Positions 28,537-39,574 of a stretch of DNA of 64,000 bases are shown in pieces. The translations under genes were made by a program, and so were the position numbers. This DNA is from Candidatus Zixiibacteriota bacterium (GTDB lineage: Bacteria; Zixibacteria; MSB-5A5; GN15; JACZUZ01), in the NCBI GenBank assembly GCA_024280835.1, contig JAJRPJ010000005.1, positions 1-64,000 of the forward strand. The letters are read 5' to 3'. The first letter of the stretch is position 1, and each line of letters begins with the position of its first letter. The notes under the pieces were generated by a model. It made no database searches, had not been told where the DNA came from, and was given only the letters and a program-made list of their open reading frames with translations.

Positions 28537-30828
28537 TTGAAATACACTGAACAATCCACTAGCAAACAGCGATTCAAATATCTAATTTGCGCCACTATTC
28601 TCTGTCTTGCGCTAAGCGCCAATGTCTCACTAGCAGAAGAAGACTCCACAACTAGTATCACCCCTATTCTCTCAATTCCGTCAGCTCCCGTAGATATTAA
28701 GAAGAAAATGGACGAGCAAGAAAAGGCCAGAGAAGAGAAACTCCAAGAACCAACCATCAATGCCATTTATGAAGCCGCTCATGACCCATTTGGCGACGAA
28801 TTCAAATGGCTACCAGTTTCTGATAGCGACTGGAATGCCGTCTCTATTGATTCCACAGAATCCACTGATGCCTTAACAATTTTCGCTTACAGAAGGACAG
28901 TCGACAAACCTCGCGGTGATGTATCGGTCATGGAAGTCTACTATCGACGAAAAATCTTCAATTCTATCGGCAAGGACAGCTATGCAGACATCAATTACAC
29001 TTTTTTCGACCGCTACTTCGACAGTTTACAAATTCAAGGCAGAACAATTCTTCCAGACGGAAGAACTATTCCACTTGATACGTCACTTGTGATAAGAAAA
29101 TCTATTCAAACGCCAGAGGGAGCAGACGTCACAAGTACCTCCTTCTCCCTGCCAGGCGTAACTGACAGCTGCATCATAGAATACTATATGCGCTACCTGA
29201 CCTATGAAGGCAGCACACACTGGTGGTATTACCAATCCGAGATTCCAATTCTTTCAGCAAAATATTTCTGGTATCCTGCAAAATCAATTCTGGAGAAAAA
29301 CGAATTTGTCCAAATGATATTGGAACTTTTGAAGGACGAAAAAGGGGTTATTGATTTTACACTTCCAACGCCTTCCCGATTGATTCCTGACAAGCGTTCC
29401 ACGGCTTACGCTTGGCAAAACACTGTCGGCAAAGCAACGACAAACATTGTGCCTGAAAACTCTCCGAGTGTTCTAGTCTTTGCGGTAACAGACGTTCCCC
29501 CTTTTGAACCAGAGCCATATTCAATTCCAGAAGAACTCCAGCAATCTCGTGTGGTCATGTATCGTACTCAGCTGGACAACACAAAGAAGTATTGGGAGTC
29601 CATGGCGAAACAATATGACGAAGCGTTAACTCATGTCGCTACGAAAAAAAAGAAACTTCTGAAAGCCATCAAGAAGATAAAGAAAAAAATACCGAGAGAT
29701 GAGTGGCCAGAGGCCGCATATAATTGGACCCAACAACAATTATGGAACAGCGATTATAATGGCTGGTATTCAGAGAAGTATCTTGCCAAACAAACGAAAA
29801 AGCGTAAAAGAAAAAGTATCTCTCGCAGAAAACGTAAGTCAAAGAAGAACAAAGAATTTTTCATTGACGACTTAATCAATCGAAGAGACGCCAACTCTAC
29901 GGGAGTCAATCTACTGTTTTGTGAAGCTCTAAAAGCTATGGGATTCAACACGCATATGGCATACGTGGTCAATAGAGATAGTACAGTGTTTTCCTCTAGC
30001 CTGCCAACCTGGCAATTTGACCGTACAATTGTACTGGTCCAGACAGACTCCGCCCACTTCGATGCCTATGACCCATCCACTCCCTATCTCGCCCCAGGCC
30101 AATTGCGCTGGCAAAACGAAGGAGTTGCTGCGCTGATTATCGGTGACACTAAACGTCTCTTTGTCCACACACCAGTCAGTTCACAAAGTGAGAACACAAT
30201 CAGTCGCTCGCTGAGTGTTAAGTCGATCGATGAAGATGGATGGAGCGCAAGTTCCAAAGAGCGCTATGGTGGACAGATGGCCACAACTCTCAGAGAAACA
30301 CTCTGGCGCCACGACGAAGAATATCATGTTCAAGAAGTCAAACGGATGCTCTTCCCTGAACAAATTGGAGTCGAAATTGACTCACTCCAAATCAGCGGCC
30401 TATGGGACAGAGGCGGGCCGATCGTAATGACTTTCAATATTCGAAAGCGCCATGAAGTCGCGGGAGGTGGGAAGCGGCTATTCTTGCCGCTAAAAGAATT
30501 CTTTGGTGAATCGTATAACCCATTTACCAAAGAAACCCGTCTCAAACCGTTAGTTTTCGATTTCCCGTATACTGTCACCGACATCGCAGTCATACACTTG
30601 AATGAGCAATGGTCGCTTCAGGCTAAGCCTGACGATATGGCGCACACAAATAAGTTCGGTAGCTGTCAATCAGCTATTAAATCCATTGGAGACGTAGTTT
30701 CACTCCAACGCCTATTCCGTATCACATCGCCATATGTTGGTAAAAAACATTACCAAGACATCCGCGATATATTCAACGCAAGGCAAGAACTCAACAACCA
30801 GATAATAAGTTTGATAAAGAGTCAATAG
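28537..30828 (+). CDS. DUF3857 exported protein with degenerate transglutaminase-like domain
   Basis: The 763-residue protein has an N-terminal signal (about 15-33), a DUF3857-like domain (about 90-340) and a transglutaminase-like region (about 380-540). Where the partner has GDCKDKTTL, this one has STGVNLLFCEAL, so the catalytic Cys position and the metal-like DCKD motif are lost. Its middle holds two very basic segments (KKKKLLKAIKKIKKK and KRKRKSISRRKRKSKK, about 368-435) unlike anything in the partner. The start is TTG at 28537 with AGAGGAAGG upstream. It is probably cotranscribed with its active-looking neighbour and could be a scaffold or regulator. Confidence 0.78.
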   Translation: MKYTEQSTSKQRFKYLICATILCLALSANVSLAEEDSTTSITPILSIPSAPVDIKKKMDEQEKAREEKLQEPTINAIYEAAHDPFGDEFKWLPVSDSDWNAVSIDSTESTDALTIFAYRRTVDKPRGDVSVMEVYYRRKIFNSIGKDSYADINYTFFDRYFDSLQIQGRTILPDGRTIPLDTSLVIRKSIQTPEGADVTSTSFSLPGVTDSCIIEYYMRYLTYEGSTHWWYYQSEIPILSAKYFWYPAKSILEKNEFVQMILELLKDEKGVIDFTLPTPSRLIPDKRSTAYAWQNTVGKATTNIVPENSPSVLVFAVTDVPPFEPEPYSIPEELQQSRVVMYRTQLDNTKKYWESMAKQYDEALTHVATKKKKLLKAIKKIKKKIPRDEWPEAAYNWTQQQLWNSDYNGWYSEKYLAKQTKKRKRKSISRRKRKSKKNKEFFIDDLINRRDANSTGVNLLFCEALKAMGFNTHMAYVVNRDSTVFSSSLPTWQFDRTIVLVQTDSAHFDAYDPSTPYLAPGQLRWQNEGVAALIIGDTKRLFVHTPVSSQSENTISRSLSVKSIDEDGWSASSKERYGGQMATTLRETLWRHDEEYHVQEVKRMLFPEQIGVEIDSLQISGLWDRGGPIVMTFNIRKRHEVAGGGKRLFLPLKEFFGESYNPFTKETRLKPLVFDFPYTVTDIAVIHLNEQWSLQAKPDDMAHTNKFGSCQSAIKSIGDVVSLQRLFRITSPYVGKKHYQDIRDIFNARQELNNQIISLIKSQ

Positions 30829-34007: not shown

Positions 34008-35012
34008 TCAATCAACTTGAACCGTTAACACCTTGGCTATTCCATCATCTCCGACATCAAAAACACCTTTTTGATCATGGACACTGACATTCTCGCCGAG
34101 AATAGAATCTGTTAAGACACTGTTTGTTATTACACAACCTGGCCCGATAATACAATTCTGCAAGCGCGAAGAGCTTATCTTACAGTCATCATATATCGTG
34201 ACATTCGGACCGATAGTCGAATTCTCAATTTTAACTTCAGCGCCAATCCAAGCGGCGCCTTCTATCTGCAAACCTTGCGATTCAGCCAGATAATCAGGCG
34301 TATGCGGAGAAGCAGCCACAAGTTTGGCGTTGGTCTCCAGCATCGTCTCTCTCTTACCACAATCCAACCAACCATCGATTGAAAACGGTGTAAACTTCTC
34401 GCCACTCTTCAACATATCAGAGAGCGCATCGGTTAATTGGATTTCTCCCGCAGTCCGTCTGCCGGAATCCGAGAGAGCGACAAGCGCTTTCAATAGTGTA
34501 CGAGGTCTGCTGAAATAATACAACCCCACCACCGCCAAATTGGATTTTGGCGCCTGTGGCTTTTCGACCAGCTTGGTAATCGAATTTCCAGAGGTTTCAG
34601 CCACTCCAAAGCGCCTTGGATCTTCGACTTCTTTCAACGCCAAGACATTATCGCCAGCTTTCACAAAAGCCCCAAAATCGGCCTGAATAATCGTATCTGC
34701 CAGAATAATCAAAACGTCTTCATCAAGAAACATTCTCTCCAAAGCCAATTGAACAGCATACCCCAAACCCAATAATTGGTCCTGCTCAACTGTCGTCAGC
34801 TTGAAATCATATTTGCGGCGAACATAATCAGCCATTTGCTGGCCACGATAGCCGACCACCATCGTAACTTCCGATGGCTCAAGTTCGACTAATGGCTCCA
34901 GCAAATAATCAATCACCGTCTTGCCAGCCAACCGTAGCAATGGCTTAGGCTTTGTCAGTGTATGTGGTCGCAGTCGAAGGCCTTCTCCTGCTGCTGGGAT
35001 TATTATTTTCAT
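34008..35012 (-). CDS. Sugar-1-phosphate nucleotidyltransferase with left-handed beta-helix
   Basis: The 334-residue protein has an N-terminal nucleotidyltransferase domain (PAAGEGLRLRPHTLTKPKPLL with the nucleotide-binding loop, and LADTII for metal binding) and a C-terminal hexapeptide-type beta-helix (about 245-320). The best match is archaeal-type glucose-1-phosphate thymidylyltransferase/bifunctional family. Base and sugar are not decided by sequence. It would provide activated sugar for cell-surface polymers. It lies between the four-gene membrane cluster and metK on the same strand. Confidence 0.9.
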   Translation of the reverse strand: MKIIIPAAGEGLRLRPHTLTKPKPLLRLAGKTVIDYLLEPLVELEPSEVTMVVGYRGQQMADYVRRKYDFKLTTVEQDQLLGLGYAVQLALERMFLDEDVLIILADTIIQADFGAFVKAGDNVLALKEVEDPRRFGVAETSGNSITKLVEKPQAPKSNLAVVGLYYFSRPRTLLKALVALSDSGRRTAGEIQLTDALSDMLKSGEKFTPFSIDGWLDCGKRETMLETNAKLVAASPHTPDYLAESQGLQIEGAAWIGAEVKIENSTIGPNVTIYDDCKISSSRLQNCIIGPGCVITNSVLTDSILGENVSVHDQKGVFDVGDDGIAKVLTVQVD

Positions 35013-35066: not shown

Positions 35067-35744
35067 TTAGTTAAACATTGAACCCATTGAGCCGACTATC
35101 CATTTGTCGATGAGGAATGTCATCCGCCCAATCAACAATGAGACACGTCCCATAACCGTATAGCCAAACTGAGCGCCAAAGGCCACCATAATAAACCAAA
35201 TACCAACTTTGGCGACACGGCCAATAACCCCAACATGCTCTTTAGAAAAGTAGAAATAAACTAGAGTTGAAATAACCCCGACCAGCGTCAAAATCGCCAT
35301 CGCAAATTCTACCGTATTACCCGCTCTGCCAAAACTCGCGAAAGTATCCAACGTTTGTGGCATCACTAATCCGTGAAGCTGCGAAATTAGGAAGATTCCA
35401 GCAGTCGAACCAATAGTTATCGCCAGCCCCCAGCGGCTCATCCACGACAAATCAGGAATCGGGCCAATCGGAGTCAATCGCGTGAGCATCATCATGCCAA
35501 AACCAAACGGAATCAGCAGAATCCAATTCCCGCCAAAATCAGAATAAAGCGGATCCAGCAATTGTGGGTAAATCACTGACTGTCCGATTAGTCCAGCATA
35601 GTATCCCGCTGACAAGCCCGCGAAAACATGCTCAATAAACTTGTAGATCGGATTGTCTTTATACAAAAAAGAGAAAAGCGCCAAAGTTACAAACGCTTCA
35701 ATCCAAATCGTCAGGTGCGATCCTAATGTCAATGATTCACTCAT
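35067..35744 (-). CDS. Uncharacterised membrane protein, cluster gene 4
   Basis: The 225-residue protein has about six membrane helices (near 10-28, 37-56, 73-91, 104-122, 145-166, 177-205). No family could be named. The start ATG at 35744 lies 36 bases after the previous gene. It is the last of four minus-strand genes (38410 to 35067) whose products are all membrane proteins and which keep tight spacing, indicating a complex. Confidence 0.7.
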   Translation of the reverse strand: MSESLTLGSHLTIWIEAFVTLALFSFLYKDNPIYKFIEHVFAGLSAGYYAGLIGQSVIYPQLLDPLYSDFGGNWILLIPFGFGMMMLTRLTPIGPIPDLSWMSRWGLAITIGSTAGIFLISQLHGLVMPQTLDTFASFGRAGNTVEFAMAILTLVGVISTLVYFYFSKEHVGVIGRVAKVGIWFIMVAFGAQFGYTVMGRVSLLIGRMTFLIDKWIVGSMGSMFN

Positions 35745-35779
35745 ATCTTATATCTTCGTATCAAGTACTTAGTGTCAAT

Positions 35780-36634
35780 CTATGCAGCCTGCGGTTTTTT
35801 CTTACGTGAAACGAAGTAACCAACATTACCCATAATCACCATGAGAATTATTAAGAAATGGACAAGTGACTGAACACTCATGCCTTTAACAGCCGCCGCT
35901 TCTTTACCAACCATAATCTCATACTCAGCGGCGCCTTTCATGCCCCCAAGTAGTCCCGTCATTTGTCCCGATGTCACCAAGGGATAATATTTCGGAGCCG
36001 AAACAGCAGTGACCGAGGCGCCGACAGGCGTGTTGTATTGCGCATTGACAATCGAAATCCAGTAATCAACAATAGCATTGTCAGCCACGACAAAAATGAA
36101 ATCGATGTCATCATAGTTTTTGATATTCTGTATAATCGGCAAGTCTGCGAGCTTGGTACCAGAGTTATCAGCAGGATAAATATCCTCAATCGACGAACCC
36201 ATCCCAGATAGCACTGCAACATAATTGGCTTTGTAACCAAGGTTCACATAGTCGATGCCATAGACTTTGTCATAAAGCTTGGCCATATCGCGTGTCACCC
36301 GTTCAGATATAGTCGGTCCACCCAGAGGGATAGTGGTCATAGTAACAACCTTGCAGTTCTTCCTGAAGAGATGATGCAAAGCCGCTCGACTGGCTGGCTC
36401 GGTTTCTGGCAGCGCCGAAGCATAATAATCAAAGGTCAACATCACTGTCGAACCATCAGGCAACGCCTCAACCGCATCAAAAAGTTGCTTGGCTTCTGGT
36501 GTAATTCCCACAGGGAAATCAATTCGCCAAATCAGCGGAATAATGACTGTAATCGCTACAGCTGAATATATCCAGCGTCTATCCAGCTTGGAAACTTTCT
36601 CCCAGAAACCCATTGGTCGTAAATTCTCGCTCAT
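35780..36634 (-). CDS. Membrane-anchored protein with alpha/beta domain, cluster gene 3
   Basis: The 284-residue protein has a membrane helix at about 20-38, a soluble alpha/beta domain (about 45-245) with a Rossmann-like rhythm (VMLTFDYYAS, VVTMTTIPLGG, VNLGYKANYVAVLSGMG, IDFIFVVADN), and a C-terminal helix at about 252-272. The soluble part would face the periplasm between the two anchors. No enzymatic signature was recognised. The start at 36634 lies four bases after the stop of the preceding gene, pointing to coupled translation. Confidence 0.65.
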   Translation of the reverse strand: MSENLRPMGFWEKVSKLDRRWIYSAVAITVIIPLIWRIDFPVGITPEAKQLFDAVEALPDGSTVMLTFDYYASALPETEPASRAALHHLFRKNCKVVTMTTIPLGGPTISERVTRDMAKLYDKVYGIDYVNLGYKANYVAVLSGMGSSIEDIYPADNSGTKLADLPIIQNIKNYDDIDFIFVVADNAIVDYWISIVNAQYNTPVGASVTAVSAPKYYPLVTSGQMTGLLGGMKGAAEYEIMVGKEAAAVKGMSVQSLVHFLIILMVIMGNVGYFVSRKKKPQAA

Positions 36635-36638
36635 AGGA

Positions 36639-37358
36639 TCAGGTCTTCCCCAGATAAATACGTTCGATACCCAGAATAATGCGCAGGGACATTGACGCCG
36701 CTCCAAGAGCCGCGCCGATAATAATTCCACGCTGAACAGAAGCATTCACACCACGCATCAAAATCGTATTTATCCACTCTGGCAAATCTGGCGACATAGC
36801 GTTGAGAACCGCTTCACCCATCGGCACTCGCCAGAACATCACAATCAACGCGGCCGCCAGCAACAAAGTCGCCTCAAGTGTTCTGGCTCGGAACGCACGG
36901 TAGGCCGCCGATGCAATGTAGAATGCCAAAGTCGCAAACATCGTCGCCATCATCGGCGCATCAAGATGATCAAACAGCCAGCTAACAATAATACCATTCT
37001 GACTACCGTAAACACCTATCCAGTCAGGCAAATATGTATAAAGAGTCTTACCAATCTCGGTGGCTGGCCCAGGGAATACTCCAGGAATCGCCATCGCCAA
37101 TAGTGACACAATAGTCACCATCTTGTACCAACGATCGGTCTTCTTTTGCTGGAAGGCCTTCATATTGACACGGAAAATAGAAACCACACCGAGTATCAAA
37201 GTAAAACCACTGACAATCGTCACCCACTTAAGAACTTCTTGCTTAATATTATCGGAGGTCACTCCGAAAAGCAGTTTGAAATCTGGATTCAAAAAGAACA
37301 CTATCGCCAAAATGGCGCCAGAGCCAATTGCAAGTATTATAGGAACAGTTCTCTTCAT
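36639..37358 (-). CDS. Uncharacterised membrane protein, cluster gene 2
   Basis: The 239-residue protein has about six membrane helices (near 5-24, 44-62, 82-100, 130-152, 162-180, 207-228). It has no motif I recognise. The following gene's start is four bases beyond its stop. Its amount of membrane surface and place suggest it is an integral scaffold of the same complex as the neighbours. Confidence 0.65.
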   Translation of the reverse strand: MKRTVPIILAIGSGAILAIVFFLNPDFKLLFGVTSDNIKQEVLKWVTIVSGFTLILGVVSIFRVNMKAFQQKKTDRWYKMVTIVSLLAMAIPGVFPGPATEIGKTLYTYLPDWIGVYGSQNGIIVSWLFDHLDAPMMATMFATLAFYIASAAYRAFRARTLEATLLLAAALIVMFWRVPMGEAVLNAMSPDLPEWINTILMRGVNASVQRGIIIGAALGAASMSLRIILGIERIYLGKT

Positions 37359-37387
37359 TATCTCTACATTCTAATCTAAGATTAGCC

Positions 37388-38410
37388 CTAGGAACCGTAC
37401 TTCCCGTTCCAAAGCGCTGTAATCCATTTACCAAGTGTCTCTGGGAAGACCAAAACACCAATCACACCCAAAAGAATCATGGCTATCAATGTGGCTTTGA
37501 ATAAATCCTGACCTTTGAGACCACCAAGCAACAGCGGCTCATGTGACAAATATGCCGAGGCGGCATATAGTTCTTCGCCAATCAAAGTGTAATCACAGGA
37601 GACAATAAAGAACGGTAGTTGCGCTGTTTCCGCTGTGCCTGCAATTTGAATAGCGCCAGCGGCAAAGCCGTTTTCTGCTAGTAACAACGACTCAGCATAG
37701 AAGCCACCCATATAAATATTGGCCGCTGGCTTTTCGCGCATCATCCAGCCATTGACATGCGCAGTAAATGCAAACTGCTCACCAGCAACATAGCGCACGG
37801 TGTCTTCCTGATAGGAATCACTCTTGCCAACTTCCATATAAGACTGCTTAACTGTTTCCTGCGCTCCCGCAAAAACTAATGGATAACGAACTGGCACCAT
37901 CAAAGGCGTCTCGTATTCAGCCGTGATTTTTGCAATTCTTCCGAGAATAGTGACTCCAGCGATAGTTTGAATATCATCGAGCTCTTGAATACCAGGGATG
38001 AACAAAACAGTCCGTCCCATTTCAGTGGCGCGTCCGACTGCATCTTCAATCGCCTCTAGTCCAGGAATTTTACGAATAAATAATGACTTACCGACTTTGG
38101 CGCGCTGTGTGTAGAAAATTATAGCCCCAGAGAAAAAGAGGACCAAGACCAAAGCATTCCAGCGTTGCGCCAGAAAAAGGCCACCCGATGACTTCTCTTC
38201 AGACTTGTCACTCTCGGTGGCGGCCGCAGCTAGACCAGTATCACCAGCGACAGAATCCAGCACAGCTGAATCTACAAAGCTAGTGTCGACAGCGTCTTGC
38301 GCAAGACTTTCCCCACCGACAAACAAGACGAGACAAAGTCCAACCGCTAACAAACAGATAGCGAAAAGTGATCGACTAGCCGCCGAATTATTTCTTGCGA
38401 GTTTTATCAT
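37388..38410 (-). CDS. Membrane protein of DUF6754-like type, cluster gene 1
   Basis: The 340-residue protein has a signal-like helix (about 15-35), an acidic Ser/Asp/Ala linker, a membrane helix (about 84-103), a soluble domain (about 105-300) with RKIPGLEAIEDAVGRATEMGRTVLFIPGI, and a C-terminal helix (about 305-325). I recall the DUF6754 family name for proteins of this pattern, with moderate certainty. The family has no known function. It is first in the four-gene run, 93 bases after the isomerase gene. Confidence 0.65.
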   Translation of the reverse strand: MIKLARNNSAASRSLFAICLLAVGLCLVLFVGGESLAQDAVDTSFVDSAVLDSVAGDTGLAAAATESDKSEEKSSGGLFLAQRWNALVLVLFFSGAIIFYTQRAKVGKSLFIRKIPGLEAIEDAVGRATEMGRTVLFIPGIQELDDIQTIAGVTILGRIAKITAEYETPLMVPVRYPLVFAGAQETVKQSYMEVGKSDSYQEDTVRYVAGEQFAFTAHVNGWMMREKPAANIYMGGFYAESLLLAENGFAAGAIQIAGTAETAQLPFFIVSCDYTLIGEELYAASAYLSHEPLLLGGLKGQDLFKATLIAMILLGVIGVLVFPETLGKWITALWNGKYGS

Positions 38411-38503: not shown

Positions 38504-39574
38504 CTACGACTTCGCAAGTTCAAGTTTGAGGTTCTCAATCGCCTCAACTGGAGTCGGATCGACATTATTGAGAACCGCCGTATAGTATGAAGCGAAATCT
38601 CCCAATTGAATCATAGAAAACAAGCGAGTCAAACGGTTAGCGCCAGAACTGGCGATACTCTCCACAGTTACAGAATTATCAGACATCAGTTTTGCAAACA
38701 AATCCATCCGCAAACCAATACGCTGGTTATCTTCTTCATCTCTGAGCAAGATCACCGCAAAATTATCTTTTTGCGCTTTCGCCGAATGCGCCCAGCCAAC
38801 TAATTCATTGTGGTTCATCTCAGGAAATACATTCGAATACGCCAAGGTCTTACCGTTTTCCGAGAATTGCCCACGAAAGCGAACAGAAACAGGACTCAAT
38901 AGCCCAGCTCCAGCATAGATCAACGGAACTTTGCCACCACAGGCAGTCGCCAACTGTTTGGCTGGGTTGGAACTAGCTTCGGATTCACGAGCGAATTGTT
39001 TACGTGCGTCCTTCAAATGCAAAATCGTTTCAGATAGATCTGGGGCAAAACTTCCCGCAAACCCAAGAGCTTCAAAAAGACCCAGTAATGGAAGAAACGA
39101 ATAAGCCAAAGCCGCACGTGGCTGAAGTCCAGCTGGGATTTTCGCGCAGACAATGCCTTCTTTTTCGCAAATCTCAGCCACTTTACCACCAGTAGTCACA
39201 CAAGCCAACATCGCCGAGCGATCCATTGCATCTTCAAACATCGCCAATGTTTCTTCGGTATTGCCCGAGTAGCTGGAGATTATCACCAATGATTCATCAT
39301 CGACGTAGTCTGGTAGTTCATAGCCACGACAAACATGAAACGGAATCTGCAATTTGTTTTGCAAGAAACTCGCCAACAAATCTCCACCAATAGCCGAACC
39401 ACCCATGCCCGCAAGGACAATATTGCGAACATCCACAAATTCATCTTTGTCGATTTTCCAGGACTCACCAATAGTTCGAGCGGACTCCATTTGCTCTGGA
39501 AAATCATGTATCGCGCCATACATATCTTGCGCGTCCAGTGTTTTCATCTGTTGTATATCATCAAGTGCGCTCAC
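38504..39574 (-). CDS. Bifunctional phosphoglucose/phosphomannose isomerase
   Basis: The 356-residue protein has the SIS fold of the bifunctional PGI/PMI family: AGMGGSAIGGDLLASFL for phosphate binding, ISSYSGNTEETLA, and FPEMNHNELVGW with the catalytic Glu-His. It interconverts fructose-6-phosphate with glucose-6-phosphate and mannose-6-phosphate. The start is GTG at 39574 with GGAGTATTCA upstream; it overlaps the end of ptsI by 14 bases, so the two are coupled. Confidence 0.93.
   Translation of the reverse strand: MSALDDIQQMKTLDAQDMYGAIHDFPEQMESARTIGESWKIDKDEFVDVRNIVLAGMGGSAIGGDLLASFLQNKLQIPFHVCRGYELPDYVDDESLVIISSYSGNTEETLAMFEDAMDRSAMLACVTTGGKVAEICEKEGIVCAKIPAGLQPRAALAYSFLPLLGLFEALGFAGSFAPDLSETILHLKDARKQFARESEASSNPAKQLATACGGKVPLIYAGAGLLSPVSVRFRGQFSENGKTLAYSNVFPEMNHNELVGWAHSAKAQKDNFAVILLRDEEDNQRIGLRMDLFAKLMSDNSVTVESIASSGANRLTRLFSMIQLGDFASYYTAVLNNVDPTPVEAIENLKLELAKS

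Follow-up and report, generated by a model that had tools for sequence, protein, structure and literature searches.

A four-gene inner-membrane protein module and its ATPase neighbours in Zixibacteria and other candidate phyla

Four membrane-protein genes in a Zixibacteria genome

The window, a stretch of 64,000 nucleotides on contig 7 of a 3.3 Mb Candidatus Zixiibacteriota genome (G000, the source genome), contains four closely spaced membrane-protein genes on the minus strand between positions 35067 and 38410. The open reading frames were found where the earlier note had placed them and are named here A, B, C and D. They are listed below with the two genes that flank them, which are given for context.

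38504-39574, minus strand: bifunctional phosphoglucose/phosphomannose isomerase; conserved upstream neighbour of the class-1 cassette of Zixibacteria
37388-38410, minus strand: subunit A, 340 aa; DUF6754 (PF20539, E 2.7e-115); signal-peptide-like helix, short periplasmic stretch, transmembrane helix, cytoplasmic DUF6754 alpha/beta domain, transmembrane helix
36639-37358, minus strand: subunit B, 239 aa; six-helix membrane protein, N-terminus inside
35780-36634, minus strand: subunit C, 284 aa; transmembrane helix, periplasmic alpha/beta domain, transmembrane helix
35067-35744, minus strand: subunit D, 225 aa; six-helix membrane protein with a charge pattern opposite to that of B, N-terminus probably outside
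34008-35012, minus strand: sugar-nucleotidyltransferase-like gene; conserved downstream neighbour of the class-1 cassette of Zixibacteria

The gaps from A through D are 29, 4 and 35 bases. An alternative, longer in-frame start of C lies at 36745 and would overlap B. Window A scores 384 bits against PF20539 (Pfam gathering cut-off 27), and no Pfam or NCBIfam family was matched above cut-off by window B, C or D. Comparison with a congener (G074) indicated purifying selection on A, C and D, with dN/dS values of 0.05-0.08 that resemble those of the flanking nucleotidyltransferase and isomerase genes; dS for A, C and D is near saturation in this comparison, and dN/dS for B was incalculable. The four are genuine genes and their order is not due to chance, since the same A-B-C-D order on a single strand was seen in all 107 complete sets that could be read, at 76 loci in many phyla.

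Topology was assessed from hydropathy averaged across 64-74 relatives per subunit, with sidedness taken from charge (positive-inside rule). Six helices were resolved in B, six in D and one at either end of C. In A, a signal-like first helix is followed by a second before the conserved domain and a third after it. The description of A and C as two bitopic proteins with a soluble domain stands for C but is too simple for A, with its signal-like helix plus two more. Because charge places the domain of A in the cytoplasm and that of C in the periplasm, the two soluble domains are predicted to lie on opposite sides of the membrane. Most A proteins have an FnIII-like periplasmic part; an extra N-terminal FnIII-like domain is present in three of the four A proteins of the source genome, window A being the one that lacks it. 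In Cloacimonadota, one class of A reaches about 975 aa through a long N-terminal region (L148:1197-4121, L149:3200-6121), which is probably periplasmic, and the C proteins of these sets contain an insertion that brings them to 393-407 aa.

AlphaFold2 models of A (mean pLDDT 84) and C (mean pLDDT 94) both consist of alternating helices and strands. Foldseek searches of these models against the PDB gave no match at E <=0.001, with best E values of 6e-3 for A and 1.2e-3 for C and query-normalised TM scores of about 0.2-0.35; the resemblances were generic and Rossmann-like. Sequence profiles compared with solved structures recovered FnIII alone for A and nothing relevant for B, C or D, and for B, C and D, where 64-70 members per subunit were scanned against Pfam, only scattered chance matches appeared. 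Homology of A with C, or of B with D, was ruled out by profile comparison. Near-invariant polar residues were found in A (R127, E130, E185, Q212, E240, E246, Q255, D273, E279 and E280), and near-invariant residues in C (D69, E77, D128, W192, Q224 and E239), which suggests binding or contact sites in both proteins.

Distribution, copies and behaviour as one unit

DUF6754 was detected in all 132 Zixibacteria genomes and in none of 14 control genomes, and subunit C was detected in 131 of the 132. Outside this phylum, DUF6754 was present in 77 of 79 Cloacimonadota genomes, 54 of 60 in the WOR-3 group, 30 of 40 in the Riflebacteria group and 12 of 16 in the group of a Gemmatimonadetes locus (L099). 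With each species represented by one genome, a scan located at least 569 DUF6754 places; among the best 80 of these, the phyla beyond Zixibacteria were Cloacimonadota, Latescibacterota, Stahlbacteria/WOR-3, Eisenbacteria, Coatesbacteria, Edwardsbacteria, Fermentibacteria, Riflebacteria and Gemmatimonadota. Almost every sampled genome of Zixibacteria and of several related phyla contains the set, in one to six copies. Contig ends aside, the apparent exceptions inspected were a locus with masked bases (L122), one with a solitary A (L126) and one with a decayed set (L112); a further locus (L106) has a second, solitary A.

The earlier note had suggested that the genes form a single membrane machine in which two subunits are multi-helix and the other two are anchored soluble proteins, an idea that would fail if they did not occur together elsewhere. 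The A-B-C-D order recurs across phyla. Near-universality within a phylum makes plain co-occurrence a weak test there, and a second line of evidence comes from the divergence of the copies. Distance matrices of the subunits were correlated pairwise at 0.78-0.84, compared with a maximum of 0.72 in controls in which whole cassettes were swapped within a locus. The correlation above all swap controls indicates a joint history of each A and the B, C and D of the same set, and this co-diversification of copies as units argues for an obligate complex. With an invariant order, near-universal presence and co-diversifying subunits, the view that the four genes encode parts of one complex is well supported, and their products presumably associate physically. 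Profile searches of the subunits, which could have revealed a more familiar identity, returned no transporter or secretion-system match, only DUF6754 for A and no family for B, C and D.

The source genome has four A genes. The three outside the window each belong to a complete ABCD set, and these sets lie in tandem on contig 3 (L017:4517-15825); identity among the four sets of the genome is 32-51%. A tree of the joined subunits separates the window's class 1, which is a Zixibacteria clade, from classes 2, 3 and 4. The order 2-(3)-4 is kept in every Zixibacteria tandem inspected, and the divergent sets 2, 3 and 4 may form a single hetero-assembly. After the last tandem cassette, a gene at L017:16501-17013 and at five other loci encodes a conserved protein that is small and very basic and has the motif REYQRRYYQxHKEKAKEYQRQYNLTHKKK; the gene mostly precedes a pyruvate phosphate dikinase-like gene.

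The class-1 neighbourhood in Zixibacteria is conserved and follows the order DprA, HPr, PTS enzyme I-like, phosphoglucose/phosphomannose isomerase, ABCD, nucleotidyltransferase, MetK and AhcY. A link to surface polymers had been proposed from the two sugar-related genes next to the set, and it finds no support here. That context is confined to the class-1 copy of Zixibacteria, where it also includes PTS enzyme I, HPr, MetK and AhcY, and the other classes do not have the class-1 sugar-gene neighbourhood; non-class-1 copies adjoin a MutL-like ATPase and a barrel-sandwich protein, or lie in other contexts. Several class-1 cassettes of Zixibacteria have a lipoprotein-like gene after D (L050:6115-6771, L052:5934-7094 and five other loci) which is missing from the window. 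Elsewhere in the window, positions 28537-30828 on the plus strand encode a large protein, unrelated to ABCD, that matches DUF3857 and DUF3858 weakly.

A cytosolic module beside ABCD

New here is a cytosolic trio, c10, a MutL-like ASKHA ATPase and a protein termed X, which lies beside ABCD in many phyla. X (375 residues) and the MutL-like protein (PF13941) are the commonest ABCD neighbours, and c10, a protein of about 115 residues, is often found ahead of MutL. The full order c10-MutL-X-A-B-C-D on one strand was seen at L099 and L112, and MutL-X-ABCD with no c10 detected at other loci. The MutL of one locus (L109) scores 436 bits against PF13941, for which the Pfam gathering cut-off is 27, and ASKHA-type phosphate and adenosine motifs were recognised by eye in the partner ATPase (DCGSTTTKA, DIGGATTD and GSGGVLSHA). 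Weak matches to RnfC_N, with E 1.2e-5 at best, mark X as a probable barrel-sandwich protein; they were found in 15 of its 21 members, and the one scanned first scored below the curated cut-off. No iron-sulphur domain was recognised in X, and comparison of its sequence profile with solved structures gave insignificant matches only; a KOW-like domain is possible at its C-terminus.

The known PF13941 proteins, GlmL/MutL, are accessory proteins of B12 mutases and have been proposed to keep these enzymes functional. The partner ATPase belongs to the same family; it differs in that it adjoins X and ABCD, with no recognised mutase genes in the loci read, and the MutL of the source genome scores 249.6 bits against the GlmL equivalog model NF040745 (cut-off 475), so it is not a GlmL equivalog. 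An alternative is that ABCD is a membrane-bound enzyme or sensor complex in which the alpha/beta domains would bind small ligands on the two sides of the membrane, MutL-X being no more than an ASKHA reactivase or chaperone that keeps the enzyme functional. The Rossmann-like models of the soluble domains of A and C and their many invariant polar residues are in keeping with this, as is the kinship of MutL with accessory proteins of B12-dependent enzymes. However, no characterised enzyme family was matched, the Foldseek resemblances are generic, and such a complex has no obvious need for two six-helix proteins or for 3-6 parallel sets per genome. This alternative is given a somewhat lower probability than the preferred reading below.

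The distribution of X bears on how closely the trio is tied to ABCD. X was found in 120 of 129 Zixibacteria genomes and in 77 of the 78 high-quality ones, mostly as one full copy; it is thus single-copy where ABCD is multi-copy. In the L099 group, X is present in all 12 genomes with DUF6754 and absent from three of the four without it; in the fourth (G158) a contig ends at or inside the X gene. Natural fusions of 973 and 1056 residues in Fermentibacteria and Cloacimonadota (L150:5806-8724 and L151:7490-10657, both minus strand) tie MutL and X together; their X part is diverged but X-like, and they are located apart from ABCD. Long frames with X-like matches, similar to these fusions, also occur in several Zixibacteria genomes.

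The linkage of the trio with ABCD could also be incidental, with ABCD self-sufficient and the ASKHA module serving something else. MutL and X lie apart from all ABCD sets in the source genome, where they are together on contig 13 and every set is on another contig, and in several other genomes. Furthermore, two Cloacimonadota genomes (G188 and G204) contain c10-MutL-X with no DUF6754 match, and they are the main argument against MutL-X and ABCD being strictly linked. The coupling is therefore not absolute, or the assemblies are incomplete. Against this, the adjacency recurs in distant phyla, and presence and absence agree in the L099 group; an incidental linkage is judged improbable.

Other neighbours of the module were also recorded. 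Between MutL and X in Zixibacteria lies a gene for a secreted, C-terminally anchored protein of 255-279 aa (L129:3400-4239, L109:4855-5622) with a weak PsbP match only. ExbB-like genes adjoin X in Zixibacteria, and ExbB/ExbD/TonB-like genes lie downstream of ABCD in WOR-3 (L128:3170-3952; L109:2437-3150; L091:15965-19372); a link to proton-driven energy transfer is possible. The ExbB/ExbD/TonB-like genes also enter a further alternative, that of a structural or signalling envelope scaffold, in which FnIII-bearing A and C would organise periplasmic or outer-membrane structures and MutL would be a PilM-like cytoplasmic scaffold. It draws on the ExbB-like gene that follows X in the source genome and at L109, on the genes after the WOR-3 sets (DUF4388, further unassigned genes, a pair of small membrane proteins and the ExbB/ExbD/TonB-like genes), and on the FnIII-like part of most A proteins with its lengthening in the 975-aa Cloacimonadota class. 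Two polytopic subunits, together with strong conservation of residues on the cytoplasmic and periplasmic sides, exceed what a scaffold would require, and no outer-membrane partner is consistently linked. The scaffold reading is given a low probability.

Proposed mechanism and comparison with known systems

The preferred reading, given a probability of about 0.4, is that ABCD is an obligate inner-membrane complex and works in the envelope as an ATP-fuelled machine, served by c10-MutL-X, for moving or assembling something across the inner membrane. Each set would contribute about 16 membrane helices, not counting the signal helix of A. B and D would form the membrane core, C would display its alpha/beta domain in the periplasm, and A would supply a periplasmic stalk, with FnIII in most copies, together with its cytoplasmic alpha/beta domain. 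The single-copy cytosolic trio, with X as a barrel-sandwich adaptor, could in most genomes serve several paralogous ABCD sets, the window's class-1 set being the Zixibacteria branch with its own locus. MutL with X may dock on the cytoplasmic domain of A, and an ATP-driven change might then be relayed through B and D to the periplasmic domains. MutL-X is presumably the ATP-driven partner of ABCD. With no characterised relative for any subunit, the idea of transport or assembly comes from the architecture and is a guess. One ATPase copy next to several membrane sets would also be in keeping with a chaperone or maturation role. More tentatively, the system, which nearly all genomes of Zixibacteria, Cloacimonadota and WOR-3 carry and which is frequent in further candidate phyla, could represent an undescribed class of envelope machine in which an ASKHA ATPase and a barrel-sandwich adaptor energise or mature a four-subunit complex and paralogous sets join into one hetero-oligomer.

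A set that occurs in every sampled Zixibacteria genome and in most genomes of several other phyla, in up to six copies and with an order that hardly varies, must have a basic task in the cell envelope of these bacteria. No family name exists for three of the four proteins, and the recurrent partner ATPase and adaptor offer a concrete handle on function. Knowledge of that function would tell what sets these uncultured phyla apart from well-studied ones.

PF20539 (DUF6754), a Pfam domain of unknown function, matches subunit A of every set. It covers one domain of one subunit; B, C, D, the four-gene module and the X partner lie outside Pfam and NCBIfam. A search of a library of open-access papers found none on DUF6754, PF20539 or the four-subunit complex, and the main text of a catalogue of unknown families from uncultivated taxa does not include Zixibacteria or Cloacimonadota (PMC10849945). 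An ABC transporter would have a Walker A nucleotide-binding domain in the complex; the Walker A pattern occurred in none of 64 B and none of 69 D sequences, in two of 70 C and in three of 74 A sequences, and there was no ABC ATPase match.

Rnf and Nqr are redox-driven ion pumps whose six-helix subunits have conserved cysteines for a membrane iron-sulphur centre. ABCD resembles them in its two six-helix subunits with opposite charge patterns, and its bitopic subunits, and the barrel-sandwich domain of the partner X may be of the RnfC type. It differs in that no flavin or iron-sulphur protein gene was recognised in the loci read and the partner ATPase has no Rnf counterpart. Pfam scans of B and D members did not match Rnf/Nqr families, and no cysteine is conserved in more than half of the 64 B or 69 D sequences. 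PilM and GspL are actin-fold platforms of type IV pili and type II secretion, respectively. Pfam scans of A and C members gave no PilN/PilO/GspM-like families, and ABCD differs from these systems in having two polytopic subunits, B and D, and no visible pilin or secretin linkage. The likeness is that bitopic subunits of the inner membrane are linked, in each case, to a cytoplasmic protein with an actin fold.
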